Origin: Ectothiorhodospiraceae bacterium
GTDB lineage: Bacteria; Pseudomonadota; Gammaproteobacteria; Nitrococcales; Aquisalimonadaceae
Assembly (NCBI GenBank): GCA_020831885.1
Contig: JAFIFU010000004.1
Location: 1-64,000, forward strand
DNA length: 64,000 bases
Direction of reading: 5' to 3'
This document shows positions 32,163-57,600 of this stretch, piece by piece (positions within the stretch are counted from its first letter, which is position 1; every line of letters begins with the position of its first letter). Made by a program: the position numbers and the translations under genes. The notes beneath the pieces were generated by a model. That model saw only the letters and a program-made list of their open reading frames with translations. It had not been told where the DNA came from and made no database searches.

Positions 32163-33515
<1,353 letters not shown>

Positions 33516-33579: not shown

Positions 33580-34263
33580 TCACGCGCCTGAGGCCTCCCG
33601 CCCCGGGCGGGCGCCTTCCCGGGTCGGGCGCAGTCCGTTGATGATGTGGTTGGAGAATACGACCGCGATCTCCTCGCCGGCCAGTGGGCCGCCCTCGGTG
33701 AACCACCGGTTGATGTTATTGATCGCGCCCATGAAGAAGAACACCGCGAGTTTGGGGTCACAGGGTTCGATCTCGCCGGCGTCCACGGCCTGCTGAACAA
33801 GCTGCCGGAGGCCGGCATCCAGCACCCGGCGGCGGCGCTCGATCAACTCGTTGTGCTCCGGGGTCATGGAGTAGTACTCGGTCAGCACGACACAGGTGCC
33901 CAGTTCGCTGGTCATGCGGGTGATGTATCCCTCGGAGAAACGGCGGATGCGCTCCAGCGGCGACTCCACCTGACGCAGGGCCTCCTCGTAGGCCTCTTCC
34001 GCCATGCCCACCGCGATCCGATGGCATTCATACAGAATCTCGTGCTTGTTCCGCACATAGCGATAGAGCATCGGTTTGGTGACCGAGAGCTGGGCGGCGA
34101 TATCGTCCAGCGTGGTGTTGTGAAAGCCCCGCCGGCCGAAGGCCCGCCCCGCGGCGAGGATCAGGGCGCGCCTGCGCGTCTCTCGCCGTTCCGACGCCCT
34201 GGCCGGGGCATCATGCCATCCGGCGATAAGGTTCCTGTCCTTCCCGGGTACCCCTTCACTCAT
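33580..34263 (-). CDS. TetR family regulator
   Basis: A 227-aa repressor. HTH residues ~37-60 (TLDDIAAQLSVTKPMLYRYVRNKHEILYE). The C-terminal domain resembles those of TetR regulators of steroid and acyl-CoA catabolism. The ATG at 34263 follows GGAGG by eight bases. It is divergent from the SDR-ligase-thiolase operon, and the operator at 34439-34460 lies between them. The inducer is probably an acyl-CoA. Confidence 0.88.
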   Translation of the reverse strand: MSEGVPGKDRNLIAGWHDAPARASERRETRRRALILAAGRAFGRRGFHNTTLDDIAAQLSVTKPMLYRYVRNKHEILYECHRIAVGMAEEAYEEALRQVESPLERIRRFSEGYITRMTSELGTCVVLTEYYSMTPEHNELIERRRRVLDAGLRQLVQQAVDAGEIEPCDPKLAVFFFMGAINNINRWFTEGGPLAGEEIAVVFSNHIINGLRPTREGARPGREASGA

Positions 34264-34381
34264 TGCCACAGCCTCCCAACTGCGCCCAGGTCAAGCATGA
34301 CCGCCACCGTGGAGGACCGGAAGTGTACCAGGCGCCGGCCCTTGGGGGCTGCCACGCCTTCATTCCTTGAGCAAACATTCA

Positions 34382-34400
34382 GGAAGCGCGGATCGATTCC
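34382..34400. repeat. Repeat remnant GGAAGCGCGGATCGATTCC
   Basis: It resembles the insertion-element end GGAAGCGCTGATCGATTCC at 40287-40305 with one difference, and sits six bases upstream of the TTGACA of the SDR operon promoter. Confidence 0.5.
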
Positions 34401-34405
34401 TTTAG

Positions 34406-34460
34406 TTGACAGCCGCCTCGGGCATGCCTAGGCTCAAGGGTGTTACTCAAGAGTAACACC
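34406..34460 (+). promoter_or_regulatory. Sigma-70 promoter with palindromic operator
   Basis: TTGACA (34406-34411), 17-base spacer, TAGGCT (34429-34434). Just downstream the operator arms GGTGTTACTC (34439-34448) and GAGTAACACC (34451-34460) are perfect reverse complements around AA. It is read into the SDR operon and lies next to the tetR gene. Confidence 0.82.
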
Positions 34461-34533
34461 TCATGACAACAGGATCATCAGGCGTTCCCCACAACCCGCT
34501 TGATCCGGAGCACCACCGCTGGAGGAGTGCGGC

Positions 34534-35319
34534 ATGGATTTCCCGGCACCCCTGGAGGGTCGCGTGGCCGTCGTCACCGGCGGCGCATCAGGGCTTGGTG
34601 CGGCCACCGCACAAGCACTCCGGCGCGCCGGTGCCGCAGTGGCGCTGATTGACACGGACGCCCGGCAGGCGGCCCGGTGGTCTGAGGAAATCGGGGCCCG
34701 GGGCTATCAGGGGGACGTATCCGACGCCTTGGGCATCCAGGAGATTTTCCATGATATCGCCGCCCGGCTGGGCCAGGTATCCGTCCTGGTGAACTGCGCC
34801 GGCGTGGCCACCCCCGGATCGGTGGTCCGAAAGAGCCAACCGATGCCCCTGGAAGAATACCGCCGGGTGATCGAGATCAATCTGCTGGGAACCATCAACT
34901 GCATCCGCTGCGCGGTTCCGCAGATGATCGAACGGCGCGCCACGCTCCCGGCGGACGCCGAGGCCGGATTGATCATCAACACCGCGTCCATCGCGGCCTT
35001 CGACGGCCAGGTGGGTCAGGCGGCCTACGCCGCCTCCAAGGGCGGGGTGGCCGGCATGGTCCTGCCCCTGGCCCGGGAACTGGGCGATTACGGCATCCGC
35101 ATCATGGGAATCGCCCCCGGGGTCTTCCGGACGCCCATGACCATGAACCTGCCGGAGCAATCGCGCGAGACGGTATTCGCGGCAGTCCCGCCGTTCCCGA
35201 AGCGCCCCGGCCGGCCGGAGGAGTTCGCCGCGCTGGTCCTAGCCATCGCCAACACCCCGATGCTCAACGGCGACGTGATCCGCCTGGATGGCGGGCTTCG
35301 CATGCCCGCACGGGTCTAG
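34534..35319 (+). CDS. SDR, 3-hydroxyacyl-CoA dehydrogenase type II-like
   Basis: A 261-aa SDR. TGGASGLG binds NAD near 15-22, the catalytic YAASK (YxxxK) follows TASIAAFDGQ. The C-terminal PFPKRPGRPEEFAALV is typical of the HSD17B10/3-hydroxyacyl-CoA group. First gene of the operon, GGAG precedes the ATG. It shares the same C-terminal block with the next gene, so the pair arose by tandem duplication. Confidence 0.92.
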   Translation: MDFPAPLEGRVAVVTGGASGLGAATAQALRRAGAAVALIDTDARQAARWSEEIGARGYQGDVSDALGIQEIFHDIAARLGQVSVLVNCAGVATPGSVVRKSQPMPLEEYRRVIEINLLGTINCIRCAVPQMIERRATLPADAEAGLIINTASIAAFDGQVGQAAYAASKGGVAGMVLPLARELGDYGIRIMGIAPGVFRTPMTMNLPEQSRETVFAAVPPFPKRPGRPEEFAALVLAIANTPMLNGDVIRLDGGLRMPARV

Positions 35320-35338
35320 GGAGAGGAGGAACAACCCC

Positions 35339-36130
35339 ATGCAAGCATCCGGAGCAATCGCTGTGGTCACCGGCGCGGCATCGGGGCTGGGCCGCGCCTC
35401 GGTCGAGGCGCTGGCCGGGCGCGGCGCGCAGGTGATGGCGATCGATCTGCCGGGGGACGGCCTGGATCAACTGGCCGGGCATGCACGCATCACCCCCTTC
35501 TCCGCGGATGTCAGCAGCGGAGAACAGTTGGAGCAGGCATTCGGGCGGATTCACGAACGCTTCGGGATTCCCCGCATCCTGGTCAACTGTGCCGGCGTTC
35601 TGGGACCGGCCCGGGTGTTCCGAACGGATCCGCAAAGCGGCCGCGTGCAACCGCGGAATCTGGACCGCTTCCGTCACGTCATCGAGGTGAACCTCATCGG
35701 CACCTTCAACGCCATTCGCCTTTTCGCCGCGGGCCTCAGCGGGTGCCGCGAGGATACGGGCGAAGACCAGGGCGTGATTATCAACACGGCCTCGGTGGCC
35801 GCTTACGAGGCACTCTCCGCCCAGGCCGCCTACGGCTCGTCCAAGGCCGGCGTGGCCAGCATGACCCTGCCGCTGGCGCGGGAGCTTGCCCGGTTCGGCA
35901 TCCGCGTCATGGCCATTGCGCCCGGCACCTTCGAGACCGGCATGTACCGGGTCGTGCCCGAACACACCCGACGCACCCTGATCGACGATGTTCCCTTCCC
36001 CAAGCGTCCGGGACGGCCGGAGGAGTTCGCCCATATGGTCCTCGCCCTGGTGGAGAACGGCATGATGAATGGATCGGTGGTCCGCATCGACGGGGCGGTC
36101 CGCATGCGGGAACCGCGGACACCGGCTTGA
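35339..36130 (+). CDS. SDR, 3-hydroxyacyl-CoA dehydrogenase type II-like, second copy
   Basis: A 263-aa SDR. TGAASGLG, NCAGVLGP, the catalytic YGSSK motif, and VPFPKRPGRPEEFAHMV, which aligns with the preceding gene. I start at 35339, after GAGAGGAGGAACAACCCC, not at the upstream ATG. Only 19 bases separate it from gene one. The two copies may use different chain lengths or stereochemistry. Confidence 0.92.
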   Translation: MQASGAIAVVTGAASGLGRASVEALAGRGAQVMAIDLPGDGLDQLAGHARITPFSADVSSGEQLEQAFGRIHERFGIPRILVNCAGVLGPARVFRTDPQSGRVQPRNLDRFRHVIEVNLIGTFNAIRLFAAGLSGCREDTGEDQGVIINTASVAAYEALSAQAAYGSSKAGVASMTLPLARELARFGIRVMAIAPGTFETGMYRVVPEHTRRTLIDDVPFPKRPGRPEEFAHMVLALVENGMMNGSVVRIDGAVRMREPRTPA

Positions 36131-36145
36131 GGGGAGGACGGCAGG

Positions 36146-37801
36146 ATGACGACGACCAACCCGATCACCGGCGACCCACCCCTGATCCAGCACCGGGTGC
36201 TGTACGGTAACCGGCTGGTGCCCTGCTATGCGGATTGTCCTGACAACCTGGACGCCGTCCTGCGGCGTTCCGTGGCAGCGGGGGGCGAACGCCCGGCGGT
36301 GGTGGACGGAAGCAGAACGCTGAATTACCGAGAGCTGGACCGGGAAGCCACCCGGGTGGCCACGGCCCTGGAGGCACGGGGCGTGGGCAAGGGTGATCGG
36401 GTCGCCCTGTTTCTCGGCAACCGCCTGGAGTTCATCACCACCCTGTTCGGGGTCTGGAGACGCGGCGCCATCGCCGTTCCCATCGGAACACGGCAGACCC
36501 GGATGGAGCTGGAATACATCCTGAACCAATGCACCGCCTCTGCCATTCTCCATGAAGCAGCGCTGGCGGATCGGATTCCACCACCGGCGACGGTTCCGAA
36601 CCTGCATACCCGGGTCAGCATGGCCGTGGAAGAGACCCCCGCGGGCGTCGATCCGGAGCCGGAAACACTGGACTACCGTGATTTCCTCGGCCTGGGCACA
36701 GACCGGGACTCGGCGCCCGCCGTGGACGCGGAGGAACCGGCCTGCATCATGTACACCTCCGGCACCACGGGCCGGCCCAAGGGTGCGATGCTGTCCCATC
36801 TGGGTTTCTACCACACGGCAAGGAACTACCAGCGACGGTTCGGCTACACCGCCCAGGACCGGATGCTACTGGTGGTACCCGCCACCCACATTTCCGGACT
36901 ACTGGCCTGCGTCATGGTCATGATCCAGGTGGCCGGCTGCGTCGTGTGCCTGCGGGAATTCCGGGCCGCGGAGGTGCTGAAAACCATCGAATCCCAGCGC
37001 ATCACGGCTTCCACCATGGTTCCGGCCATGTACAACCTGTGCCTGCTGGAGCCGGATTTCCACCGGCATGACCTGTCCTGCTGGCGCACCGGTCACTTCG
37101 GCGGCGCGGCGGTGCCGGAGGTGACCATCGAACGGCTGGCGCAGAAGCTGCCGCGGCTGCGGCTGCTCAACGGATTCGGCGCCACCGAGACCACGTCCGC
37201 CGTGACACTGACGGATCCGGCACAGGCGGACGCCCACCTGGATTCGGTGGGAACGGCGCTGCCGTGCGTCGACATCCGTGTGCTCGACGCGGCGGGCCGT
37301 GAAGTGCCCCCCGGTGAAGCCGGTGAGCTCTGGATACGCAGTCCCGGGAACGCCATCGGCTACTGGAACAATCCCCAGGCGAGCCGGGAAGCCTTCGTCG
37401 CCGGCTACTGGCGCAGCGGCGACATCGGCAGCGTGGATGAGCACGGATTTGTCCGCGTCTTCGATCGCATCAAGGACATGATCAACCGGGGCGGCTACAA
37501 GGTGTTCTGCGTGGAGCTGGAAAACGTCATTCAGCGTTTCCCCCATGTGATCGAGGTGGCGGCGGTGGGCAGCCCCTGCCCGGTGCTGGGCGAACGGGTA
37601 CACGTTTTCATTCATGCCAAGGAGCCCATCGACAAAGAAGCGCTCCGGGCGTTCTGCGGACAGGAACTGGCCGACTACAAGGTTCCCGACCTGATCACCG
37701 TAAGCCCTGATCCCCTGCCGCGTAACCCCAACGGCAAATTGATCAAACACCCTCTTCGTGAGGCCGCCAGGACCATGGCGGCGCAATCAGCCCCCAGCTA
37801 A
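36146..37801 (+). CDS. AMP-dependent acyl-CoA synthetase
   Basis: A 551-aa ligase. YTSGTTGRPKGAM is the adenylation motif, then NGFGATETTSAVTL, SGDIGSVDEHGF and the C-terminal PRNPNGKLIKHPL with catalytic Lys. It activates the substrate acid of this operon. The ATG is 16 bases after the preceding stop and follows GGGAGGACGGCAGG. The acid is unknown; context is beta-oxidation of an unusual or branched acid. Confidence 0.94.
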   Translation: MTTTNPITGDPPLIQHRVLYGNRLVPCYADCPDNLDAVLRRSVAAGGERPAVVDGSRTLNYRELDREATRVATALEARGVGKGDRVALFLGNRLEFITTLFGVWRRGAIAVPIGTRQTRMELEYILNQCTASAILHEAALADRIPPPATVPNLHTRVSMAVEETPAGVDPEPETLDYRDFLGLGTDRDSAPAVDAEEPACIMYTSGTTGRPKGAMLSHLGFYHTARNYQRRFGYTAQDRMLLVVPATHISGLLACVMVMIQVAGCVVCLREFRAAEVLKTIESQRITASTMVPAMYNLCLLEPDFHRHDLSCWRTGHFGGAAVPEVTIERLAQKLPRLRLLNGFGATETTSAVTLTDPAQADAHLDSVGTALPCVDIRVLDAAGREVPPGEAGELWIRSPGNAIGYWNNPQASREAFVAGYWRSGDIGSVDEHGFVRVFDRIKDMINRGGYKVFCVELENVIQRFPHVIEVAAVGSPCPVLGERVHVFIHAKEPIDKEALRAFCGQELADYKVPDLITVSPDPLPRNPNGKLIKHPLREAARTMAAQSAPS

Positions 37802-37814
37802 AAGGATTCATGTC

Positions 37815-39050
37815 ATGTCAAACCCAGTGTACGTCCTCGGCGGCCATCAGACGGACTTCTCGCGCAATACCGCCCGGTCCGGCGAAGGCATCTTCGAGCT
37901 GATGCGGGACGCGGTGCAGGCCACGCTGGCGGATGCCGGGCTGGATGCCGGTGCAGTCGATGCCTGCCATGTGGGCAACTTCGCCGGCGAGCTTTTCACT
38001 GGCCAGGGGCAACTTGGCGGCATGTTCGCCGCCATCGACCCGGGGTTCTACGGCACGCCGGCGGCCCGCCACGAGGCCGCCTGCGCCTCGGGAAGCATCG
38101 CCCTGCTGGCGGCCATGGCCGAGATCGAGGCCGGACGCTACGACTGCGTGCTGGTCACCGGCGTGGAGGTGGAGCGCAATGTATCCGGAGAGCAGGCCGC
38201 CCGGCACCTGGGTGCGGCCATGTGGGTGGGCCGGGAGGGCCAGGAGGCGCGTTACCCCTGGCCTTACATGTTCCACCTGGTGGGCGAGGAGTACCAGCGC
38301 CGCTACGGCTTGCGCTATGAACACCTGGCGGGTATCGCCGAACTCAATCTGACCAACGCCAAACGGAACCCCAACGCCCAGACCCGGAACTGGCGCTTCG
38401 AGCCGGAGAGTTTCACGGAGGACGACCAGGCCAATCCGGTGATCGAGGGCATGATCCGCCGGCAGGACTGCGGACAGGTCACCGATGGCGCGGCGGCTCT
38501 GGTGCTGGCCTCGGAGGGATTCGCGCGGACCTGGGCCGCGGAACGCGGCATGCGCTTAAGCGCCGTCCCCTTCATCGCGGGCTGGGGGCACCGCACCGCG
38601 CACCTCCGGCTGGAGGAGAAGCTGGCGGTCAGCCGGAGCAGCGATTACGTCTTCCCCCACGTGCGGGACGCCATTCAGGCCGCTTTCCGCCGCGCCGGAA
38701 TCAACGATGTGTCCGCCATCGACGGCATCGAGACCCACGATTGCTTCACCACCACCGAATACATGGCCATTGATCATTTCGGCATCACGCCGCCGGGGGA
38801 GAGCTGGCGCGCGGTGGAGTCGGGGGATATCGCCATCGACGGGCGGATTCCGGTCAACCCCAGCGGAGGCCTGATCGGTCTGGGGCATCCGGTGGGCGCC
38901 ACGGGGGTACGCATGGTACTGGATGCCGCGCGCCAGGTGACGGGTGCCGCCGGCCATTACCAGGTGGACGGGGCACGGCGGTTCGCCACGCTGAATCTCG
39001 GCGGCAGCGCCACCACGGTGGTGAGCTTCGTCGTCCAGGGCGGCGACTGA
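37815..39050 (+). CDS. Thiolase (SCP-2/acetyl-CoA acetyltransferase type)
   Basis: A 411-aa thiolase. The catalytic cysteine lies in EAACASGSIALL, with the His in NPSGGLIGLGHPVGATG, so it should be active, unlike the copy at 51892. HDCFTTTEYMAIDHFG is typical of SCP-2 thiolases. It cleaves a 3-ketoacyl-CoA. ATGs at 37810 and 37815 compete; I use the second, which starts the conserved strand. Confidence 0.92.
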   Translation: MSNPVYVLGGHQTDFSRNTARSGEGIFELMRDAVQATLADAGLDAGAVDACHVGNFAGELFTGQGQLGGMFAAIDPGFYGTPAARHEAACASGSIALLAAMAEIEAGRYDCVLVTGVEVERNVSGEQAARHLGAAMWVGREGQEARYPWPYMFHLVGEEYQRRYGLRYEHLAGIAELNLTNAKRNPNAQTRNWRFEPESFTEDDQANPVIEGMIRRQDCGQVTDGAAALVLASEGFARTWAAERGMRLSAVPFIAGWGHRTAHLRLEEKLAVSRSSDYVFPHVRDAIQAAFRRAGINDVSAIDGIETHDCFTTTEYMAIDHFGITPPGESWRAVESGDIAIDGRIPVNPSGGLIGLGHPVGATGVRMVLDAARQVTGAAGHYQVDGARRFATLNLGGSATTVVSFVVQGGD

Positions 39051-39171
39051 TCCGTAACGGTACGGCAACAGATCCGTTTTCAGGAACGCCCCGCACCCGC
39101 GGGAATCGATGCAGGGACCGCAGTTACCGGATACCCATGTATCCGAATTATGAGAAGTGGAGGAGACCGGC

Positions 39172-40233
39172 ATGACCGACAATATAAAGATGTCTCGTCG
39201 CAAGTTTCTTGGTACGGGAGCCAAGGCCACCGTGGGCGCCGCCGCCATCCTGGGGGCACCGGCCGTCATCGCCTCGCCGAACCGCAAAATCAAATGGCGC
39301 ATGCAGACCCACTGGCCACAGGGAACCTGGTACTACCGGGACATATTCGAGGAGTTCGCAAAACGGGTCTATACGGCCACCGACGGTGAGCTGGAAATCG
39401 AGACCCACGCCCCGGGCTCGGTGGTCGGCACCATGGACAAGCTCACGGCGGTCCGCCGTGGAACCCTGGACGCAGCCTTCACCTTCCCCGCCTACTGGAT
39501 CGGCCAGATGCCGGTTGCCGGACACTTGAACGGCAACCTGGGCACCTTCGACAGCAAGGTGGAGATGGAGTACTTCATGTACGAGATGGGGGCCCTGGAC
39601 ATCATCCGGGAGGCCTATGCGGAACGCGGGCTGCACCTTTGCGGACCCGTCGCCTCCGGCGGCGTGACCGTCTTCGCCAAGCACCCGCTGCGCACCCTGT
39701 CGGACTTCCGTGGATACAACATCCGGACAACCGGGACCGCGGCCCGGGTCTTCGAGAAGCTGGGTGCGGCACCGGTGTCCATCTCCGGCGGGGAACTCTA
39801 CCAGGCCCTGCAGACGGGGGTGGTGGATGCAGCCCACTGGGGCAGCGTCTCCGGCGGCATGAGCATGAACTTCAACGAAGTCACCTCCTATATCATGCTG
39901 CCCGAGTTCATCAACCCCACCAACGGGGAGATCTTTGTCTCCCTGGAACGTTGGAACGCGTTGGGCAGCGACCACAAGCAGATCCTGGACGACGCAGTGC
40001 GGGCGATATCCAGCCACTACAACGCCCGGGTGCTGCACCACGACCTTACCGGGATGCGGGATTTCGTCGAGAACGATGGCGGCGAGATCGTGCACATGGA
40101 GGATGAGGTCATGGAGGCGGTGCGGGTCTATACCATGGAGGTGGTGGACGAGGTCTCCGAGCGGGATCCGGACTACTCGGGACGCGTGGGCGCGCTCCTG
40201 CATGAGTTCATGCAACTCACCGGCAAAGTGTGA
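39172..40233 (+). CDS. TRAP transporter binding protein (DctP family) with Tat signal
   Basis: A 353-aa periplasmic receptor. The Tat signal SRRKFLGTGAK is followed by a hydrophobic stretch and ASPNRKIKW. HAPGSVVGTMDKLTAVRRGTLDAA and SISGGELYQALQTGVVDAAHWG are DctP features. GTGGAGGAGACCGGC sets the ATG. Separated by 121 bp from the thiolase, so probably transcribed with the operon or from a near promoter. No DctQM genes are present. Confidence 0.9.
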   Translation: MTDNIKMSRRKFLGTGAKATVGAAAILGAPAVIASPNRKIKWRMQTHWPQGTWYYRDIFEEFAKRVYTATDGELEIETHAPGSVVGTMDKLTAVRRGTLDAAFTFPAYWIGQMPVAGHLNGNLGTFDSKVEMEYFMYEMGALDIIREAYAERGLHLCGPVASGGVTVFAKHPLRTLSDFRGYNIRTTGTAARVFEKLGAAPVSISGGELYQALQTGVVDAAHWGSVSGGMSMNFNEVTSYIMLPEFINPTNGEIFVSLERWNALGSDHKQILDDAVRAISSHYNARVLHHDLTGMRDFVENDGGEIVHMEDEVMEAVRVYTMEVVDEVSERDPDYSGRVGALLHEFMQLTGKV

Positions 40234-40282
40234 GGCAGACTGTCCCCGGTGTGGCAAGGCTCCGCACACCGGGGACACCCTC

Positions 40283-40313
40283 TTAAGGAAGCGCTGATCG
40301 ATTCCTTCCTTAA
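40283..40313. repeat. Minimal insertion-element remnant with TTAA flanks
   Basis: TTAA then GGAAGCGCTGATCGATTCC then TTCC and TTAA. It equals the two element ends with the inside deleted. It overlaps the stop codon of the oxidoreductase gene (40310-40312). Confidence 0.65.
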
Positions 40314-41368
40314 CGCAGGGGGAGTGCGACCCGACCAGCGCCCCGCAGGGACTGCGTGACGGCGTCGGTCCATTCCATATAGTGAACGCCGGTGGCGAAA
40401 TCCGTGAGCATCACCGGCGATCCGGTTCTGATCGCCTGGACGAATTCCTCCTCCACCCGCCAGGCACCCCGTTCTTCGGGCGCGATGGGTACTGGCTTCA
40501 GACCCCCGTCGCCCCGTCGGCCGGCGAACAGTTCCATGGCACCGCCGGCGGGCTGAAACAGGCGCAGGGTACCCTGGGTGCCATGGACGAGGATGTCCAC
40601 CGGCGCCGGCACGTGCCCGGCCACCGTGGTGACGCACATCCGTAGCTGTCCACCCTGCTCCAGCTCTCCGATGATGTCGACGTAATCCGGAATACGCATG
40701 GCGACACGCCGGCCCCGGCTGTCCTTCCGGTGCTTCACCACCGATTGCCCCACCGCCTGCACCGTACGCGCCGGACCCACCCAGCGGATCAGGCTTTCGT
40801 ACCAGATCCCCATACTCATGATGTTGTTGCCGGAGAGGGTGCGCTCGTGCCGCCAGTGCAGGGGGGAATCCCAGTCGGGGAACGTGCTGTCCGGAGCAAG
40901 TCGGGCGTCCACGGCGATCACATCCCCGATCTCGCCTGCCGCGATCATCCCGATGATGGTGGAATCAAACGCGAGGGTCAGCGGCGCCGGCACGAGCTGA
41001 GCCACCTGGCCCGGACATCCGCGGGCCACATCCAGCATGCGGTGCGCTTCCACGCTGTTCATGGCCATACGCGCCTCGCAAAGCACATGCTTGCCCGCCT
41101 GCAGCGCGGCAATGGTGATGGGCGCGTGCATGTAGGGCCAGGTGCCGATGCACACCGCATCCACGTCCGGGTTCTCAATCACTGCCCGCCAATCCGACGC
41201 GATATCCGGTATACCCCACTCCGCGGCGAACGCCCGGCTGGATTCCCGCGTCCTGTTGGCCACGGTGACCACCTCCACACCGGGAATCGCCCGGAACCCG
41301 GGCATGTGTCGCTCTCGCATGTTGCCGCCTGCCCCGATCAGGCCAACGTGAAGCTGCGAATCGCTCAT
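40310..41368 (-). CDS. Gfo/Idh/MocA family oxidoreductase
   Basis: A 352-aa NAD(P)-dependent oxidoreductase. LIGAGGNMRERHMPGF is the Rossmann motif; WPYMHAPITIAALQAGKHVLCEARMA follows, where most relatives have GKHVLCEKP, so the usual catalytic Lys of EKP is replaced by ARM. The later HWRHERTLSGNNIMSMGIW belongs to the C-terminal domain. The ATG at 41368 follows GAAGAGGATT. The stop codon comes from a repeat remnant. Substrate unknown. Confidence 0.87.
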   Translation of the reverse strand: MSDSQLHVGLIGAGGNMRERHMPGFRAIPGVEVVTVANRTRESSRAFAAEWGIPDIASDWRAVIENPDVDAVCIGTWPYMHAPITIAALQAGKHVLCEARMAMNSVEAHRMLDVARGCPGQVAQLVPAPLTLAFDSTIIGMIAAGEIGDVIAVDARLAPDSTFPDWDSPLHWRHERTLSGNNIMSMGIWYESLIRWVGPARTVQAVGQSVVKHRKDSRGRRVAMRIPDYVDIIGELEQGGQLRMCVTTVAGHVPAPVDILVHGTQGTLRLFQPAGGAMELFAGRRGDGGLKPVPIAPEERGAWRVEEEFVQAIRTGSPVMLTDFATGVHYMEWTDAVTQSLRGAGRVALPLR

Positions 41369-41716
41369 AATCCTCTTCCCCCGGATCCGGATGCCAGCGC
41401 CCTGCCGCAACCACCCACAGGCTTTCCCGGAGCCCTGCCACTGGAAAGCAGCGGCGCACTCAAAGACCGGTTCCGGCCGGCAGCGTCACACCTCTATGCT
41501 ACCAGCAAGCCACGCCAGCCGTTTCCGGCCTTCCGCGCACCCCGCTCACCCCGCTCACCGTCCGCCCGATACCGGAAACGTTGTCCCCCAAAAATCCCTG
41601 CGGCATGCCTAAACTGAATCGGTGCGGAGACGGCGTGACCACCGGGCCGATAGCGAACTCGACCCGGACAGGGATCTTTCATGGTCTGACGAGCGAAGAC
41701 AAACGTCCGCTTTCTC
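41369..41716. other. Intergenic region upstream of the oxidoreductase gene
   Basis: This 348-bp gap must hold the oxidoreductase promoter and the end of the GTPase-kinase operon. I see no hairpin with a T-run, no repeat copy and no convincing promoter. Confidence 0.45.
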
Positions 41717-44323
41717 TCAATCTGCGGAGCAACAGACCAGCCGCTGCTTCACCACATCCGCCACCACCCGCAGCCCCCGACCGGTGACATCGTACAGGCG
41801 CACCACGCCCAGCACCGCCGCATCGGTGTCCGCATCGGTGTCCGGCAGTTCCTCCGGCTGCAAGCCGTCCAGCCATTCCGGCCGGTACTCGCAGTCCGGC
41901 TCGGAGGGGAACAGGGCCACGTAGCCGATGCGGGATTCCACCAGATCCTGGAAGAAATGCGAACCGAAGGAGAGATCGGGCACCATGCCGGCACCGAGTG
42001 CGGCCACCTCCACCAGCACACTCACCTGATTGATGTCCGAGAAGCGCACGGGCACCCCCAGATCCGGGCTGCTGGTACCCCAGCGGCCGGGACCCATGAG
42101 CAGGGTCGGGCAGTGGGTGCGATGGGCCATGCCCCGGTTCAGCCGCCCCACCAGCCGTCCCACCGCGTGCTTCTGCGCGGTGGTCAGCGCGCTGTAGCCG
42201 GGGCCATCCACCTGGATCACACGGGCGATGGGCAGGTCCATGTTGCCACCCATGAAGTGCCCGTCCGTGGCAAAGAAAAGCTGTTCCGGCGCCGCTATGT
42301 CCGGCAGTTCCACCTGGACGTTCGGCCCCAGCGTGGCCAGGGGGCGGCATTGCACCAGATTGAAGCTCGGCTCCCCGTCGGCGTCCAGATGCACGGTGAA
42401 CTCCACATCCACCGGGTGGGCGTAGGCCTGTTCCAGGGTCTTCAGCATGATCCGGGCCCGCTCCACAAAGCCGGTGTCACGCAGCAAGGGGGTAAAGCTC
42501 AGCCGCCAGACGGGTTGGTCATCACCCAGGTCCCGGGCCCGGCGGGTGGCGTCCCGGTCCAACTCGGCCAGTTGCGGCAGGGGCAGATCCCGCGCCTCGC
42601 GGCCCAGTTCACGGAGCGGCACGCCCCGGTGGCTGTTCTCGGCGATATCCAGCACATCCACGGTGTGCTGCGCGTACCGGTAGGCGTCATCCCTGCTGCG
42701 AAACGGCCGCTTGAGGGGCTGGTCCAGCGCCACCACGCAGGCGTGATCGCCCTCGATACGATCCACCGCCCGCGTGCCCAGGCCCAGGACCAGACGCAGC
42801 ATACCGGCGGAGGCATCCATATCCGGATCCCAGACGAAGGTATTCCAGGACACCCCCACCCCGGCGGCATCGGGCAGGTAATAGCGGCCATGGTAACGGC
42901 CGTTCACCCGCTGAAGCAGCAGGGCCATTGGCTCTTCCTGGTCGGCCAGACCGCGGTGCCGGCGGTAGTTGAGGGCATCCTCGCTCATGGTGGAGGCGTA
43001 GACCTGACGGATGGCGTGTTCCAACTGCGCCAGCCGCGCCTCCGGGCTGCCCTGGTTCACGCAGAACACGCTGTCGTACTTGCCGGCGAACGCGTTGCCG
43101 AAGCCGTCCTCCAACAGACTGCTGGAGCGCACCAGGATCGGATACTGGCCGTAGTGGTCCAGCATGCGTTCCAGCTCCAGCCGGATCTCAGCCGGCATCT
43201 CACCGTGGAGCATATCCTCCCGTAGCGCCCGTGCCTCCTCCAGGTAACCGGCTTCGGTGCGCTGGCGCATGACCCGGGGCCACCACCCGTTGTGCACCAG
43301 ATAGGCGTAATACACATCGGAACCCAGATAAAAGGAATCATGGGGCTCCAGGCCCTGTTCCCAGCGGCTGGGATCCTCCTGCCGCAGAATCTGCCGCGCA
43401 AGCAGCATACCCACCGCCTTGCCGCCGATATAACCGCTGCCCACCATACGGGCGCGCACCGCCAACAGCTCCTCCAGCCCCAGGTAACGGCGGGCCAGCG
43501 CCAGCATGCGCGGATCACGGCTGATCAGGACCTGCAGAATCTGGTCCTGTACCTGGGCCCGGACACCGGCAGGGGCATCACCGTCCACGGCCTCGGAGGC
43601 GGTGAGGAACAGGCGATCCCAGTAATCCAGCAAGCGTTGTTGCCTGTCCTGCTGGTACTGCTGCTCCAGCAGCGCCTGCAACCGGGTGGCCTCGCTGCTG
43701 TCCACCACCGGCAGGAACTGCTCGCCCCGCTGGCGATGGGGCAGGAACATGGTGGGCGACTGGCGCCGCCAGACCTTCACCGGCTGCACCTGCATTTCGT
43801 CGGCGGCACGGCGCACGTCGATCATGACCTGGGTGGTTTCCCGGATGCGGGACAGCGTGATGTGGGAGTGGCTCCGGGGATGCAGGGCGAAATAGGCCAC
43901 GGTATCAAGCTCGAACAGGTACGGGCAGACCACCCGGAAGAAGTTGCCCACCATATGGTCCGTGGCCCAGGCATCCAGCAGGTCCGACAGGCAGTCGCAG
44001 ACATAGAAGGCGCCGCGGCCGTAATCGGTGATCAACTGGTACACGTGACGGGTAAAGGCCTCGAACCCCCGCAGCGCATCCACGTTGACGATACGGATCC
44101 CGGGGCCGGGCGCCACCAGGGGTTCATGGCGGCCGAAGCGCAGGTAGATGATCGCGCGCTGCTGCGCCGTGGCCGCCGCCACGAAGGGTTGCACGAAACG
44201 GCGGTAATCGGCGATATCGTCCACCCGCCAGACCACGTTGTCACCGATGCGCAGTCCGTCCAGCACCTGGTCCAGCCCGGCAACGCCGGTGGAGACCACA
44301 CCTTGCTCGTCCGTTTCCGTCAT
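41717..44323 (-). CDS. Degenerate KaiC-like region fused to a PEP/pyruvate-binding ATP-grasp module
   Basis: An 868-aa protein of unknown role. Residues ~10-190 start STGVAGLDQVLDGL as in KaiC/RadA-type domains, but the Walker A loop is missing (GDNVVWRVDD). From ~290 to ~700 it follows the N-terminal nucleotide-binding part of PEP synthase: SGYIGGKAVGM, PILVRSSSLLEDG, FAGKYDS and LVQCRPLAT. The phosphohistidine and PEP-binding domains of a true PEP synthase are absent; ~170 residues of unknown fold follow. The ATG overlaps the GTPase stop as ATGA, so the three proteins likely work together. Confidence 0.8.
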   Translation of the reverse strand: MTETDEQGVVSTGVAGLDQVLDGLRIGDNVVWRVDDIADYRRFVQPFVAAATAQQRAIIYLRFGRHEPLVAPGPGIRIVNVDALRGFEAFTRHVYQLITDYGRGAFYVCDCLSDLLDAWATDHMVGNFFRVVCPYLFELDTVAYFALHPRSHSHITLSRIRETTQVMIDVRRAADEMQVQPVKVWRRQSPTMFLPHRQRGEQFLPVVDSSEATRLQALLEQQYQQDRQQRLLDYWDRLFLTASEAVDGDAPAGVRAQVQDQILQVLISRDPRMLALARRYLGLEELLAVRARMVGSGYIGGKAVGMLLARQILRQEDPSRWEQGLEPHDSFYLGSDVYYAYLVHNGWWPRVMRQRTEAGYLEEARALREDMLHGEMPAEIRLELERMLDHYGQYPILVRSSSLLEDGFGNAFAGKYDSVFCVNQGSPEARLAQLEHAIRQVYASTMSEDALNYRRHRGLADQEEPMALLLQRVNGRYHGRYYLPDAAGVGVSWNTFVWDPDMDASAGMLRLVLGLGTRAVDRIEGDHACVVALDQPLKRPFRSRDDAYRYAQHTVDVLDIAENSHRGVPLRELGREARDLPLPQLAELDRDATRRARDLGDDQPVWRLSFTPLLRDTGFVERARIMLKTLEQAYAHPVDVEFTVHLDADGEPSFNLVQCRPLATLGPNVQVELPDIAAPEQLFFATDGHFMGGNMDLPIARVIQVDGPGYSALTTAQKHAVGRLVGRLNRGMAHRTHCPTLLMGPGRWGTSSPDLGVPVRFSDINQVSVLVEVAALGAGMVPDLSFGSHFFQDLVESRIGYVALFPSEPDCEYRPEWLDGLQPEELPDTDADTDAAVLGVVRLYDVTGRGLRVVADVVKQRLVCCSAD

Positions 44324-45708
44324 CGTCCCCGCCGCTCCAGTACCGCTTGCACATCAGTCCGGGCCCGGGCCAGCAGGGCCTGGGTATCCACGGTGTCCAG
44401 CACCGCTTTGACGGCCCGCTTCGGGCCGCCCGGCCCCCAGGAACTGCCATTGCGGAAATAGTCCTCGGCAACACGCCCCAGAATCCAGGTACTGGCGTAG
44501 CCCACGCCCCCCTGGGCCGTGGCGGTCAGCGCGGTGGACAGCCCGCCGCTGCCCAGCTTCAGCGCCGAGGAGAACAGACCGACGGTCCAGAGGCTGCCCA
44601 TGAGCGCCCCCAACTGTGTGATGATCACCGCCAGCAGGCGCCAGGATTCTCTGCGGGTGACGGGCAGACCGTAGATCCGCCCCAGGTGGGCGATCAGCCC
44701 CGCGTCCAGCGCCGCGGCCGCAGCCAGATCGGCGGCGGGCACCGGATTGAGGGCCACCGCCACCCCCTTGGCCAGGGCATAGTTATCGGTCACCCGGCGC
44801 GCCATGTCCCGGCGGAGCACGGTGATGCGCTCCGCCACCTGGTCGCTCAGCCGGCTGGCGAACAGGCCGGCATTCAATGCCACCAGCGCCTGCCCCTGAC
44901 CCTCGATGACCGCCCAGAGGCGTTCCACCAGGGCCTGGACATCCGGCGACCGGTGTTCCTGGCGCTCCCGCTCGCTGCCATCCGCCAGCACCTCCACCAC
45001 GGTGCGCGGCGCCGGGGCGGCGCTGGCGGCCAGCACATGCTCCGGGGGCAACAGGCCACTGGTGCGGCTGCGCAGGTGCTGCAGCAGGCGCCGGCACTCC
45101 GCCCCGGTGTAACGGTCCGCCTTGTTCAGCACCAGCAACACCGGACGGGCGTGGCCGGCAGCCGCCTGCAGCGCCGTCCATTCATTGCGCGTCAGGTCGC
45201 CCTCCACCACGAACAGCACCACATCCGCCATGGCGGCAGCCCGATGGGCCAGGGCCTCGCGCCCCTCACCGCCGATCTCGTCCAGTCCCGGGGTATCGCA
45301 CAAATGCACCAGGCCGTCGCTCACGGTCTTCCAGGCCTGGCGTTCGGTAACCACGGTCTCCCCGTGCAGCGGGCTGGTACTGAAGGCATCCCGGCCAAGC
45401 AGCGCGTTCAGCAGTGAGGACTTGCCCACGCTCACCCGCCCCAGCACGACAATGTCCAGTTGCCCGTGTTCCAGCCGCTCCAGCAACTGCTCCACAGCCA
45501 GGAAATCCGCCTGCAGGGATTGACGCACCTCGGCGGGAATGCGGGCATCCTCCAGCAGCCCGCGCAGGCTGTCGCGGACCTGCCAGAGGGGTTCGGATTC
45601 CCCTGCCGGCGGTTCAGTCGGCGGCGTCGGGCCTGTCGCTGACTCCGGCGCGTGCTTCTTCCACCGCGGTATGCGCCAGTTGTCGCGCAGGCGTTGCCAG
45701 ATCGTCAC
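44320..45708 (-). CDS. Era/dynamin-like GTPase with C-terminal DUF697-like region
   Basis: A 462-aa GTPase. G1 GRVSVGKSS is at 90-98, G3 DTPGLDE at 138-144, G4 NKAD at 195-198. A coiled region ~260-310 precedes a hydrophobic C-terminal part (LLAVIITQLGALMGSLWTVGLF) resembling the DUF697 tail of YcjF-type proteins. The start is GTG at 45708, inside the preceding GTPase gene (95-base overlap in another frame). Role unknown. Confidence 0.85.
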   Translation of the reverse strand: MTIWQRLRDNWRIPRWKKHAPESATGPTPPTEPPAGESEPLWQVRDSLRGLLEDARIPAEVRQSLQADFLAVEQLLERLEHGQLDIVVLGRVSVGKSSLLNALLGRDAFSTSPLHGETVVTERQAWKTVSDGLVHLCDTPGLDEIGGEGREALAHRAAAMADVVLFVVEGDLTRNEWTALQAAAGHARPVLLVLNKADRYTGAECRRLLQHLRSRTSGLLPPEHVLAASAAPAPRTVVEVLADGSERERQEHRSPDVQALVERLWAVIEGQGQALVALNAGLFASRLSDQVAERITVLRRDMARRVTDNYALAKGVAVALNPVPAADLAAAAALDAGLIAHLGRIYGLPVTRRESWRLLAVIITQLGALMGSLWTVGLFSSALKLGSGGLSTALTATAQGGVGYASTWILGRVAEDYFRNGSSWGPGGPKRAVKAVLDTVDTQALLARARTDVQAVLERRGR

Positions 45709-47113
45709 GGGTCAGTACCTCGAATTGCTCCAGCACGCGTTGTTCGTCCAGTGTGCCATCCTCCTCCAGCACCTGGATCAACGCCAGGCCGACGGTGCGG
45801 AACAACAGGCCGTAGGCCACGGCGTGGATCAGTCCCCCGGCGATGGTGCCGACGCCGGGGAACGCCTTGCAGGCATTGCCGGCGATCCCCATGATCACCG
45901 GCCGGGTGGTGCTGGCGCGGCCCTGCAAGGCCGCCAGCAGCCGATCGATCTGAACCGAACGCACCGGCACGTCGAACAACTGGCACAACTCCCGCACCAT
46001 GGCTGCGGCCAGCGCGCCCTGGATCAGCAGATCGGTCCCCGGCGCCACGGCGGCCAGGGCGCCCACCACGGCCCGGCGTGAATACCGCTCCACCAGGGCG
46101 TGGGCGGCATCCCGCCGCTGGCCGCGTACCGCCCGCTCCAGTTTTCCCGCCGCCAGCAGAAACACCGACTCATCCCGCAACGCCTTCAGCGCCGCCACAT
46201 CCCGGTCCAGCAGCCGCTGTAGCTCCCGGCGCAGTTCCGCCACCTCCGGCGGACGGGGCCGTTGCCGGGCCTCTTCGGTACCATCCGGCAACCGGCGCAC
46301 CACGGTTTCAGTACCACCGGCCGCAGCAAGCACAACCGGCACCTGGTCGCCCACCCGTTCCCGCACCCGGGACCGGATTGCCTGCATGTCCGCCCGCGTG
46401 TAGCGATCCGCCTTGTTCAGCACCAACAGCATGGGGCGGCGGAGATCCCGCAACAGCCCGAACCAGCGCCACTCGGTGCGGTTGAGATCGCCCTGGGCCA
46501 CGAACAGCACCAGGTGCGCGCGACGGGCCTCATCCAGGGCCAGGGATTCCAGTGCGGGGTCCAGATCCTGCAATCCGGGCATGTCCACCAGCCGCACGGC
46601 GTTGCCGGCCGGCGTTGTCCAGTCCAGGGTCTGCAGGCTGCGGGTGGTTCCGGCCAGCACGTCGCTCTCAAGCCGGGCACCGGGCAGCAGTGCCGAGAGC
46701 AGGGCCGACTTGCCGGTGCTCACCTCGCCGAAGGCTGCAACCGCCACCACACCGGCCTGATCCCGCCGATCCAGCTCCGCCAGCTCCGCCCGGGCGGCGG
46801 CCGCGTCCGCGCCGCGGTCTGCGTGGGCCCGGATGCGCCGCTCCACGGTTGTCCGGTCCACCGACGGCCGCTGCCGTTCCGGCGCCGGTACGGGACGCGC
46901 CAGCAGCAGGCGGCCCAGCATCCAGCCGATTCCTGCCAACAGGCCCAACACCCCACCAACGATCGTCCAACGCCGCCACGCAGGCTGTTCGGCCAGCAGG
47001 GCCTGGAACTGCAGCCATTGCACCAGCAGGACCAGCAGCAGAACGGCGGCCAGCAGCAGGATCAGCGCGAGCAGCGCCCAACGCCAGGCGCGGGGAAGTT
47101 CGGTCGGGATCAT
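45614..47113 (-). CDS. Membrane-anchored GTPase with DUF697-like C-terminus
   Basis: A 499-aa GTPase. Two N-terminal membrane helices (~11-33, ~50-70) are followed by G1 FGEVSTGKS (P-loop 129-136), G3 DMPGLQD near 177-183 and G4 NKAD at 233-236. The C-terminal stretch AVVGALAAVAPGTDLLIQGALAAAMVREL and DVPVRSVQIDRLL resembles DUF697. Both GTPases share NKADRYT, so they are paralogues. It opens the three-gene operon. A GTG at 47119 is an alternative start. Confidence 0.85.
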   Translation of the reverse strand: MIPTELPRAWRWALLALILLLAAVLLLVLLVQWLQFQALLAEQPAWRRWTIVGGVLGLLAGIGWMLGRLLLARPVPAPERQRPSVDRTTVERRIRAHADRGADAAAARAELAELDRRDQAGVVAVAAFGEVSTGKSALLSALLPGARLESDVLAGTTRSLQTLDWTTPAGNAVRLVDMPGLQDLDPALESLALDEARRAHLVLFVAQGDLNRTEWRWFGLLRDLRRPMLLVLNKADRYTRADMQAIRSRVRERVGDQVPVVLAAAGGTETVVRRLPDGTEEARQRPRPPEVAELRRELQRLLDRDVAALKALRDESVFLLAAGKLERAVRGQRRDAAHALVERYSRRAVVGALAAVAPGTDLLIQGALAAAMVRELCQLFDVPVRSVQIDRLLAALQGRASTTRPVIMGIAGNACKAFPGVGTIAGGLIHAVAYGLLFRTVGLALIQVLEEDGTLDEQRVLEQFEVLTRDDLATPARQLAHTAVEEARAGVSDRPDAAD

Positions 47114-53432: not shown

Positions 53433-54629
53433 CTACCCAGGCCCGAGCCGGGACAGCGCCCGCCTCAGGTAACCGTAACCAACACGTTCCTGCTCAAGCC
53501 GCAAACAGTCACCGAATGCGTTGTCGCGCAGGGCGCGATACACCGCCTGCTCCGACGCGGTGAGATTCGGTAGCACACCAGTGAAACGCTTGCCGTGGGG
53601 CTCGGCACCCCAGAGTTCCCTGTGCGCCTCAAGGGTCTCCTGGTCCATGAGCAGGGAGCGGGCATGGGGCAGACGGGTCCGCAGGCGGTTAAGCATGGCA
53701 AAACCATGGGTATCGATATCGCCCCAATAGTAGACTTCCACCTGCTGCAGCCAGTGGACCCCAGCCAGACGGTCAAGCCCGTATCCCAGACCGAAAATCA
53801 CCAGACTTCCTGGATGTTCCGGAAACGCGAGACCGTTGATCTCATTCTCGGTGATGAACACCCGCCTCACCGGCAGACGCAGCTCGCCGAATTCCCGCGC
53901 GGGTACAGACAGATCACTCAGCCCCTGGATACGGAGCCGCACATCCAGCACACGGAACCGGACCAGAGGGGGTTTTCCGAGCAAACCGTAGCGCTGTTCG
54001 AAGCCCCGGGTACCGCTTACCTTCCGGTTAACAGCCTGGTCCGGCAGCGCCGCGTCCAGCAGTTCCGACAGCAGTTTGCGCCGGCCCTCGATGAACTTGG
54101 TGTCCACGCCGGGGATGTCCAACTGCCTCAGGTAAATCCGCGGGTTCGGGTTTGCCTGAAACCAACTCAGCACATCAAGGATGCGCGGCCATGCCTCGGC
54201 TTCCGCCAGCAGCTGCTGCGGCCGCCGGACCAGCCAGTCCGTAAGGGAAGGAAACCGTCGCAGCGTTTCGTCCACCAGGCACCGGAAACGCTCCGCCTCC
54301 CGCTGGCGGCCGATCAGGCGCAGCCCATCGTCCTCCGTTGGGATAACAGCGCCATCCGGCAGGTCGTTGGCGCCGTGAACCCGGTGGTTGACCCGCCGCC
54401 AGGTGATCTCGTAGCCATACCCACGGGCAGACCGACTGTGGGCTTGGAGTTCCTGCACCCACTGGCGTACAGCGGCGAAATCCTGGGCAAGCTCCCTTGA
54501 GCCGGGCCTGCGCAGCCGCAGCGTACGCGGGAAGATGCGCTCCCCGCGAACCCGGGCGGAAAGCCAGTCACCCCGTTCCCACAGGCGCAGCAACTGCTGG
54601 CGCAGATCCCCGGGCGTGGTCCAGCTCAT
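53433..54629 (-). CDS. jetD: Wadjet system nuclease subunit JetD
   Basis: A 398-aa JetD with an N-terminal DUF3322 part and a C-terminal Toprim-like nuclease of the DUF2220 type. The acidic residues are in ITENEINGLAF and YWGDIDTHGFAML. JetD cleaves DNA recognised as small circular plasmid after loop extrusion by JetABC. It overlaps jetC as ATGA and is the last gene of the operon. Confidence 0.93.
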   Translation of the reverse strand: MSWTTPGDLRQQLLRLWERGDWLSARVRGERIFPRTLRLRRPGSRELAQDFAAVRQWVQELQAHSRSARGYGYEITWRRVNHRVHGANDLPDGAVIPTEDDGLRLIGRQREAERFRCLVDETLRRFPSLTDWLVRRPQQLLAEAEAWPRILDVLSWFQANPNPRIYLRQLDIPGVDTKFIEGRRKLLSELLDAALPDQAVNRKVSGTRGFEQRYGLLGKPPLVRFRVLDVRLRIQGLSDLSVPAREFGELRLPVRRVFITENEINGLAFPEHPGSLVIFGLGYGLDRLAGVHWLQQVEVYYWGDIDTHGFAMLNRLRTRLPHARSLLMDQETLEAHRELWGAEPHGKRFTGVLPNLTASEQAVYRALRDNAFGDCLRLEQERVGYGYLRRALSRLGPG

Positions 54630-57600
54630 GGGGCGATGCGCCGGCGGGCGGCCTTCTCCGCCCGGTATTCTTCTATGGTGAGATTCCGCACCATGGATTC
54701 CCGCCCTTCCATGTTGTGCACGAAACCCACGCTGGAGACGAAAGGCTCGATGATGTGGATCTTCTGTAGCGGTGTAACGATGAGCAGTTGCAGATTCAGG
54801 CGACGAAACAGCTCCAGACCATAACGGGCGGATTCATCCGATCCCCTGCCGAAAGCCTCGTCGATAACCACGAAACGGAAGGAACGTGAACGCGTCTCCC
54901 CCCATTCCAGGCCGAACTGGTACGCCAGGCTGGCGGCCAGCACCGTGTAGGCCAGCTTCTCTTTCTGCCCGCCCGATTTTCCGCCGGAATCGGTGTAGTG
55001 CTCGTACTCGGTGTCGTCCTCCCGCCAGCGTTCCGAGGCGGAGAAGACGAACCAGTTGCGCACATCCGTCACCTTGCGGGTCCAGCGCCGGTCCAGGTCG
55101 GTGGTACCTTCCCGGCCCCGGAACCGTTCGATGATGGCCTTCACCTGCAGGAACTTGGCCTCGGAGTACTGGTCGTCCGCAGAGCCGGTGAGCGCGTCTT
55201 CGGTGCAGGCACGCAGGCTCTGCTGGAAGTCGCGAATCTCCGCATCCCCGGCGCTCTCTGCCAGGAGGGTGATGTAACGGTTGTCGTTGTAGTCGATCTC
55301 CCGCAGGGAGCGGTTGATGGTGGCGATGCGCTCCAGGATGGCCTGGCGCTCCCGATGCAACCGGCTCTGGAAGGCGGCCACCTCGCGGATGGTGTTCTCG
55401 TTTAGCAGCTCCTTGAAGCGGGCCTCGAACCGGGGCAGGTCATCAGCCTGCAATTGCGCAAGCATGGCCCGGTAGTCGTCGGCGGCGTCGATGCTCACGT
55501 CCACCTCCTGGCTGTCCAGAGGCCAGGCGGCATGGTAGCTGCGCATGGCGTCGATGATGCGATCGCGCAATGCGGCCAGACGCTTGTCCCCCGCATCGAT
55601 CCTGCCCTGAAGCCACTCCCGCATGTCCTTTTCCCGGTTGTCACAGGACTCCACCGTCAGGGTGTGCTGGCCCAAGGCCTCGTTGCGCATCTCCGCCAGC
55701 TTCGGGAAGTAGGTCGTCTGCGCCTCTTGGGGGGTGGCCTCCAGCAGGGTGTGGCAGTCCGCCTGCTGGTCCCGGGCCTGTTCCTGCTTGAGCTCAGTGG
55801 CGCTGAGAGCCCGGTCTGTTTCGCGAACCTCCCCCTCCAACCCGGTAATGGCCTGCTCCACCTCGTCCAGTTGCCGCTCCAGCGCCCGAAGCACGTCGGA
55901 GCCCTCGGCCAGTGCCTGATATTCCCGTTCCAAGGCCTGGATGTCGGCGGCCAGGGGGCGCCAGTCCAGGGTCTCGAAATCCTGGAAGTGGGCCAGGGCA
56001 TGGATGGTGTCCCGCCGCTCCTGCTGGGCCCGCTGCGCCCGTTGCCACTGATCGATCTGTCGTGCGATCCCCTGCATCCGCTGGGTCAGGGTGGCGGCCT
56101 CGGCCTCCAGGGCGGCGATCTTGGCCTCGTTGGTCCAGCCCAGTATGTAGCGGGCGCGATCGTCGATGCGATGGCGGTCGTCCTTTTCGTGGCGGCCACC
56201 ACCGGCCTTGATCTGGCCGGCACGGGTCAGGGCGCGTTTCTCCCGCCGGAACTGCTGCAGGTCGGTGCAACAGGCGTAGTCGAAACGCCGGCCCAGCTCC
56301 TGTTCCAGCCAGGGGTAGAAGGCCGACTCCGGGCGGATGGCCAGCTTGCGCACCAGAGAGTGGGGGTGCAGATCCGGGAGCGGGGCGTCCCGGGACTCGC
56401 GGACCCGGTAGTAAACCAGCCGCCCCCGGAGATGGGTACGCTCCACCCACTCGGCCACCCCGGCGTAGTGGGCGTCCGGCACCAGCAGGGAGAGACCGAA
56501 GTTGTGCAGCACCCGCTCAATGGCGCCCTCCCAGTCCCGCTCCTCGTCGCGCACCTGCAGCAGTTCGCCGGCGAAGGGCAATGCCTCGGCATCCAGCCCC
56601 AGGGCATCGCACAGGGCCTCGCGGATGCTCAGCATGGCGGCCGGGAGATTGGAGCGGCGGTTCCGCAGGGAGGCCAGTTCGGTGTCCAGGCCCTCGTGAC
56701 GGTCCTTGAGCTGGCGCAGTTCAACGCTGGCCTCGGTGATCCGGTTCTGCAACTCGCCGTGGGCTGTCTCGGTGGCCTCCAGCGCCGCACCCAGGGCGGC
56801 CCGGTTGTCGTGGAAAACCTGGACGCTGGTGGCGTCAGGCAGCTCCAGTTTGTGTGCCAGCGCCCGGTAGCGTTCCGCCTGAGCGCTGCGCTGGGCCTTT
56901 TCCCGCCCTTTGCGCTCCAGTTCCACCTTGATCCGTTCCAGCCGATCGCCGCCGTTGTCGGCGATGGCCTGTTTCAGCTCGTCCCGCCGGGCGCGCTGTT
57001 CGGTCAGCCGGCTGCCCAGGGTTTCCGCCCGCCGGCGCAGGCGGTGCGCTTCTTCGCTCAGATTCTCAAGCCGACGGTCGAGCAGATCGCTTTTCAACGA
57101 CGCGAACCAGGGCCGTAAGGCTTCCCGGCAATGGCGCAGTTCCTCCGCCCACGCCGCCTTTTCGGCGTGTTCGTCGGCGTCTTTCACCAGGGGCGTGAGC
57201 TGCTCCACCTGGGTGCGGGCTTTTACCACCGCCTCATGGGCCCGATTCAGATCGTCGAAGTGGCGGATCAGGGCATCGATGCGGTCGGCCACCGGAAAGG
57301 CCTCCAGCATGTGACCGCGCACGAACTCGGTGAGATTGCCCACCGATTTCATGGACACCGTCTGGTTGAACAGCTCCATGGCCTGTTCGTTATCGATGCC
57401 GAAACGACGGCGGAAAGCACCGCCGTAAGGAGGGAAAGTGTCGTGCAGTTCCACCCGTGGGAGATCCCGTAACCGCTTACGCAGATTGGCCAGGTCGGAG
57501 CCGAAGTCGGCGAAGTGCTCGGCGATACTCAGCTCGCCATCGGCCACCACGAAGAAGCGGGCTGGCTGGCCCTGAATATCCTTCATCCAGAAGACCTGGG

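Follow-up and report, generated by a model that had tools for sequence, protein, structure and literature searches.

A KaiC-like protein with a PEP-synthase-type ATP domain, often encoded near NADP-glutamate dehydrogenase

The window analysed here is a stretch of 64,000 nucleotides from the genome of an Ectothiorhodospiraceae bacterium (contig JAFIFU010000004.1, positions 1 to 64,000). It encodes the protein P1, whose gene is preceded on the minus strand by the genes of two GTPases, P3 and P2. P1 is composed of a KaiC-like domain, an ATP-binding domain of the type found in phosphoenolpyruvate (PEP) synthase, and a C-terminal domain that contains the histidine H789. Members of the P1 family are distributed among many phyla, their ATP ligands are strictly conserved, and their genes are often located close to gdhA, which encodes NADP-type glutamate dehydrogenase (GDH). 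It is possible that P1 belongs to the PEP-synthase superfamily as an ATP-dependent phosphotransferase and acts in ammonia assimilation, often alongside NADP-GDH, and that the GTPases are an independent pair. This reading is tentative, and its chance is judged to be just short of even. The positions of the genes and domains in the window are:

41717-44323, minus strand: P1, 868 amino acids, KaiC-like domain, PEP-synthase ATP domain and C-terminal domain with H789 (Pfam, AlphaFold2)
41717-42322, minus strand: C-terminal domain of P1, residues 668-868, candidate divergent phosphohistidine swivel domain (weak fold matches)
32166-33512, plus strand: gdhA, NADP-type glutamate dehydrogenase P0004, 449 amino acids (tblastn, PF00208)
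33580-41410: block separating gdhA from P1 (gene layout, Pfam)
44320-45708, minus strand: P2, GTPase with DUF697, downstream member of the pair, GTG start, 462 amino acids (Pfam, alignment A4)
45614-47113, minus strand: P3, GTPase with DUF697 and a hydrophobic N-terminus, upstream member of the pair, 499 amino acids (Pfam, alignment A3)

Linkage of P1 to gdhA

A search of 144 relatives matched P1 in 51 genomes at E <= 0.001, of which 36 match part of the ATP domain only and are not counted. The other 15 carry P1, in one case (G039) as a fragment at a contig edge. In 12 of these 15 genomes, no more than 400 bp separates gdhA from P1, and the two genes are convergent (tail to tail) in 11 and on the same strand in one. 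The distance between the two genes is 8.2 kb in the window and 11.9 kb in the congener G002, and they are located on separate contigs in G121. NADP-GDH is present in all 15 relatives with P1 versus 19 of the 129 without it (p = 2e-11), and within the order in 14/14 P1 genomes versus 8/40 others (p = 1e-7). The GDH copies of the relatives score 754-772 bits against NF006929, which has a cut-off of 536. The window gdhA matches the GDH of locus L053 at 86% (tblastn) and PF00208 above its cut-off.

The block between gdhA and P1 in the window is formed of catabolic genes, which encode a TetR regulator, a short-chain dehydrogenase/reductase (SDR), an AMP-binding enzyme, a thiolase-like protein, DctP, and a Gfo/Idh/MocA protein. 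The thiolase-like gene and a second SDR-like gene were assigned from sequence and clustering, not from a Pfam scan. The block is also present in G002 (locus L052) and is absent from the third congener, G001, in which gdhA abuts P1.

A genome_contigs scan with the P1 alignment identified at least 576 related stretches, and 80 named loci were kept, some of which belong to genomes that are also among the relatives. According to their record titles, the loci belong to Gammaproteobacteria, Desulfuromonas-type, clostridial, spirochaete, and other organisms, mostly as metagenome genomes. In the 80 loci, gdhA is found within 10 kb of P1 in 35 and within 500 bp in 27. There are four layouts of the 35 linked loci: convergent (12), upstream on the same strand (17), downstream on the same strand (5), and divergent (1). 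In a culturable Marinobacter, the two genes are adjacent and have the same orientation. In the further loci L166-L169, GDH adjoins P1 in L168 and L169.

Other genes near P1 in some loci encode gltB/gltD, glnA, amtB, PII, carbamoyl-phosphate synthase, CTP synthase, and a NifA-like regulator. At least one of gdhA, glnA, amtB, PII, and gltB is present in 42 of the 80 P1 loci, which cover 1,351 kb. Of the 15 GTPase loci that served as a control (201 kb), two have such a marker, and one of these two matches is a 29%-identical dehydrogenase. Genes of a NifA-like sigma-54 activator cluster adjoin P1 in L107, L110, and L127, and the L107 copy, the one that was scanned, passes the NifA cut-off. Forty-five loci have no nearby gdhA, and other ammonia genes are near P1 in seven of them. 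NADP-GDH was found in 38 of the 41 genomes searched from this group (L085, L124, L155, and L161 were left out).

Domain architecture of P1

Near full-length P1 sequences were obtained from 74 of the 80 loci (L118, L121, L124, L125, L127, and L161 were omitted). Alignment A2 contains 72 of them (L094 and L097 were omitted) together with the window protein, giving a total of 73 members, whereas alignment A5 contains 62 of the 72 loci and the window protein. The AlphaFold2 model of P1 has a mean predicted local distance difference test score (pLDDT) of 88.1 and a predicted template modelling score of 0.88.

Residues 4-222 of P1 have a KaiC/RecA fold, with structure comparison Z scores of 17.6-20.3 over 188-209 residues of the KaiC matches. 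The Walker A motif GxxxxGK[ST] is present in 0/73 aligned members within the first 250 positions. Both results bear out the description of this region in an earlier note on this DNA as KaiC-like and Walker-less. The likeness of P1 to KaiC and inactivated KaiC-like (iKaiC) domains is in the fold of these residues, and P1 differs from KaiC in the missing Walker A motif, the single domain, and the fusion to a PEP-synthase ATP domain. The term iKaiC appears in a passage of PMC5847659.

The nucleotide-binding part of PEP synthase, which the earlier note had also recognised, is matched by the Pfam family PPDK_N (PF01326), named for pyruvate phosphate dikinase (PPDK), over residues 298-674 (3.7e-45, 155 bits versus a cut-off of 27). 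A PEP-synthase profile matches residues 325-522 at 96.9% in profile comparison. In the model, the ATP domain (residues ~262-668) was matched to rifampin phosphotransferase (RPH) and PEP synthase with Z scores of 21-26, and HpeI was matched to P1 with a Z score of 17.7; these three have the folds closest to P1. The alignment to PEP synthase 2ols places residues 263-868 of the P1 model onto residues 13-467 of the chain. RPH and HpeI share the PEP-synthase-type ATP domain with P1, which differs from them in having no drug-binding domain and in its domain order and genomic setting. RPH uses its ATP domain to phosphorylate something other than pyruvate.

The residues K302, R399, E641, Q658, R660, and H789 are invariant in 73/73 aligned members, which come from many phyla. 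The first five residues correspond to the Lys, Arg, Glu, Gln, and Arg that serve as ATP ligands in RPH and PPDK. K302 was located through its GGK motif, and the register of R399, E641, Q658, and R660 was taken against 5fbs, in an alignment whose second stretch scores only 2.3 bits.

The PEP/pyruvate barrel has no Pfam match in P1, and the aligned family members are 840-929 amino acids long. The earlier note had stated that both the PEP-binding and the phosphohistidine domains are missing. The first part of the statement holds, as the chain ends at residue 868. The second part is doubtful: the canonical phosphohistidine signature G[GA]x[STN]xH[STA] is found in 0/73 family members, but the C-terminal ~200 residues may form a divergent swivel domain. 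Folded on its own, the C-terminal domain has a pLDDT of 91.9. Its best structural match is 3t05 (Z 5.9, residues 474-581 of S. aureus pyruvate kinase), and it also matches the central domain of PPDK (1ggo, Z 5.7; 5lu4, Z 5.0); the best score falls under 8, the caution level of the tool. Many of the weak matches, such as chaperonin apical, RraA, LD-carboxypeptidase, and PA domains, are of the swivelling beta/beta/alpha fold by SCOP class, and this common fold suggests a fold class and not a function. Foldseek returned nothing for the C-terminal domain at E <= 0.001, and hhalign profile comparison of the domain with nine PEP synthases detected no relationship.

H789 is positioned at the start of a helix, after a strand and a loop, and the catalytic histidine of the PPDK central domain begins a helix in the same manner. 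The commonest motif around H789 is S-[FY]-G-[ST]-H-F-F-Q-D-[LI]. Because of the weak Z scores and the absence of a detectable profile relationship, a divergent phosphohistidine domain is kept as a possible assignment of the C-terminal part of P1. The likeness of P1 to PEP synthase and PPDK comprises the fold of the ATP domain, the ATP ligands, and the candidate swivel domain that follows, whereas P1 differs in lacking the PEP/pyruvate barrel and the canonical phosphohistidine signature and in having a KaiC-like domain at the front.

Some distant relatives of P1 have, or may have, other N-termini. A Parabacteroides protein of 984 amino acids, annotated simply as 'PEP/pyruvate-binding domain-containing protein', is 25% identical to P1 over residues 294-823 and likewise has PPDK_N and a GPGRWG...HFF C-terminus. 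It differs from P1 in its receiver-like N-terminus, the score of which (28.2 bits) is under the Pfam cut-off of 30.2. In a comparison of three Bacteroidales records, the receiver-PPDK gene is adjacent to and divergent from gdhA in Parabacteroides and Phocaeicola, and the Prevotella record shows no GDH. Two NADP-GDH-type genes flank the receiver-PPDK gene in Parabacteroides (L170:3184-12476) and in Phocaeicola (L190). A receiver-PPDK architecture of the Bacteroides type is mentioned in a passage of PMC5847659. In G489, G554, G569, and G593 of a Clostridia sample, relatives of P1 match profile residues 242-846 only, within frames of 1046-1096 amino acids, and therefore may carry an N-terminal module that is not KaiC-like.

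Proposed role of P1 and alternative explanations

In the proposed mechanism, the Walker-less KaiC-like domain would serve as a sensor or docking module, and the ATP domain, with the ligands needed for ATP binding retained, would enable autophosphorylation of P1. H789 in the C-terminal domain would take up the phosphate and hand it on. Since P1 has no PEP/pyruvate barrel, the acceptor would be something other than the usual one, most likely GDH itself or another protein or metabolite of nitrogen assimilation. A bolder reading, which is unlikely, makes P1 the first member of a widespread class of ATP-to-histidine phosphotransferases: the PEP-synthase ATP domain would charge H789 as the histidine of a divergent swivel domain, GDH or another ammonia-assimilation protein would be modified, and the Walker-less KaiC-like sensor would exert control.

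Several observations weigh against a phosphotransferase linked to GDH. The swivel-domain assignment leans on weak Z scores and was negative in profile comparison. The gdhA gene is not within reach of P1 in 45 of the 80 loci, partly owing to short contigs, and 3 of the 41 searched P1 genomes have no NADP-GDH match. The density of ammonia markers per kb is only about threefold above that of the GTPase control, and the linkage counts are not phylogenetically independent. In the Clostridia-class sample of 148 genomes, P1 or a relative is present in 17; gdhA is adjacent in one of these (G531), two have no NADP-GDH, and the co-occurrence with GDH is not significant (15/17 versus 89/131, p = 0.10). 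G121 and G251 have no gdhA in the ~1.4 kb of sequence available beside P1, and close GDH homologues (80 and 77%) occur in G005 and G106 without P1 nearby. In a crude comparison of 48 linked with 17 unlinked GDH sequences, sets that are related and redundant, six positions differ and no clear phospho-site was found. Finally, in an even class sample of 369 genomes, the GTPase is present in 4/5 genomes with P1 versus 46/364 others (p = 0.0014), which speaks against the independence of the GTPase pair.

The main rival explanation, which is somewhat unlikely, takes P1 as a regulator or scaffold without catalytic activity: ATP binding would serve as an energy signal, and P1 would control GDH or PII by binding, with no transfer of phosphate. 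The absence of both the Walker A motif and the canonical histidine signature from all 73 members, the missing PEP barrel, and the linkage to GDH and PII are consistent with such a regulator. However, the ATP ligands and H789 are strictly invariant across many phyla, which suggests that chemistry was retained.

It is less probable that P1 phosphorylates a small molecule in the manner of RPH or PEP synthase and yields an intermediate of nitrogen metabolism. The identity of the nearest folds and the several ammonia and glutamine enzymes among the neighbours point to such an activity; however, a separate acceptor-binding domain is not evident in P1, and the N-terminal module of GDH-linked relatives varies between KaiC-like and receiver-like, which looks regulatory.

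The linkage to GDH could also be mere retained synteny of no functional meaning, since many of the linked loci come from close relatives (Ectothiorhodospiraceae, Marinobacter, and Desulfuromonas) and the linkage is almost absent from the Clostridia sample. This is improbable given the four layouts in several phyla, the gdhA-adjacent relative with a different N-terminus, and the ammonia genes in loci that lack gdhA.

Literature searches on P1 or GDH, in which subscription papers were poorly covered, returned no title that describes a link between the two. The PEP-synthase superfamily is already known, and the link may have been published in part: the title of Baggio and Morrison 1996 refers to one or more trans-acting genes that are located downstream of gdhA in Bacteroides thetaiotaomicron and influence the activity of GDH. 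By this title, the gene(s) resemble P1 as a gdhA-linked factor acting on GDH; they may or may not correspond to the receiver-PPDK relative. Apart from this title, nothing hints at a link between P1-type proteins and GDH that is functional as well as genomic.

The adjoining GTPases and the significance of P1

The three open reading frames are as tightly coupled as the earlier note had described: all are located on the minus strand, P2 and P1 share an ATGA at their junction, and P3 overlaps P2 by 95 nt. P2 and P3 both contain MMR_HSR1 and DUF697 above the Pfam cut-offs, and the NKADRYT motif is present in both, as had also been noted. The neighbouring genes are real, but they do not appear to form a single system. 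The trio, which the earlier note had considered a three-gene system, is linked only in this genome (G000) and its congener G002 among the genomes examined, which makes 2 of 18 P1 genomes, and in none of the other genera examined.

P3 was matched in 37 of the 144 relatives, 22 of which are weak and not counted, leaving 15 at E < 1e-40. P1 and P3 occur together in three relatives, G000, G002, and G121 (Fisher p = 0.19). In G002, the full trio is present in the same order across a contig break, whereas in G121 the two genes are on separate contigs. The P1 of G001 adjoins gdhA, and no GTPase was matched in this genome, which is 88% complete and in which the contig stops ~600 bp upstream of P1. None of the 49 named P1 genomes of other lineages has P3 at E <= 1e-40, and a GTPase piece is present in one of the 80 named P1 loci, that of G002 itself. 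The even class sample contains P1 in 5 and P3, by the query that was also used for these 49 genomes, in 50 of its 369 genomes. The four class genomes with both are G000, G121, G186, and G251, of which G121 and G251 belong to the same genus, and P1 and the GTPase are on different contigs in all but G000. These separate distributions suggest that P1 and the GTPase pair are two modules, and the trio as one system was rejected on this basis. That two membrane GTPases act with P1 as a single functional system is very improbable: the shared strand, the ATGA overlap, the gene order of G002, and the co-occurrence in the class sample favour it, but the linkage is confined to two congeners, P1 occurs without the GTPase in 12/15 relatives and 49/49 distant genomes, the GTPase occurs without P1 in 46/50 class genomes, and the P1 loci are nearly devoid of GTPase pieces.

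P2 and P3 are a slr1306-like overlapping pair that is probably independent of P1 and came to adjoin it in this genus. Their best NCBIfam match, slr1306_fam (NF049994), was reached with 161 bits by P2 and 97 bits by P3. They share the GTPase and DUF697 with this family and differ from it in scoring far below its cut-off of 490 and in forming a tandem overlapping pair. In the 50 class genomes with the GTPase, a second match is located on the same contig in 43 and on another contig in 3, and 4 have a single match. The hydrophobic N-terminus of P3 and the conservation of the pair suggest that P2 and P3 may work together as a GTPase switch at the membrane. Two loci each have one of the GTPase genes broken into two reading frames, L081 that of the P3 homologue (4999-6382) and L074 that of the P2 homologue (4347-5781). 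The title of Zhang et al. 2008, cited in PMC5472144, proposes slr1306 for the cyanobacterial CO2-concentrating mechanism.

In PADLOC, P1 has no match at E <= 1, and P2 and P3 match LeoA/LeoBC through the GTPase domain only. An anti-phage defence role of P1, to which PADLOC gives no support, was dropped. Plasmid carriage was dropped as well: no plasmid record spans 80% of P1, and P3 has no match among these records. Elsewhere in the window, Wadjet-like genes are located on the minus strand at 53433-58021, where JetD (DUF3322 and JetD_C) overlaps a 1131-amino-acid SbcC/RAD50-type ATPase that is probably JetC.

NADP-GDH is one of the chief routes by which ammonium enters metabolism. The P1 family is little studied and no role described for it was found, although at least 576 related stretches are distributed among many phyla. 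Widespread, with a strictly conserved ATP site, and often encoded adjacent to gdhA, P1 is a candidate for an unrecognised layer of nitrogen control.

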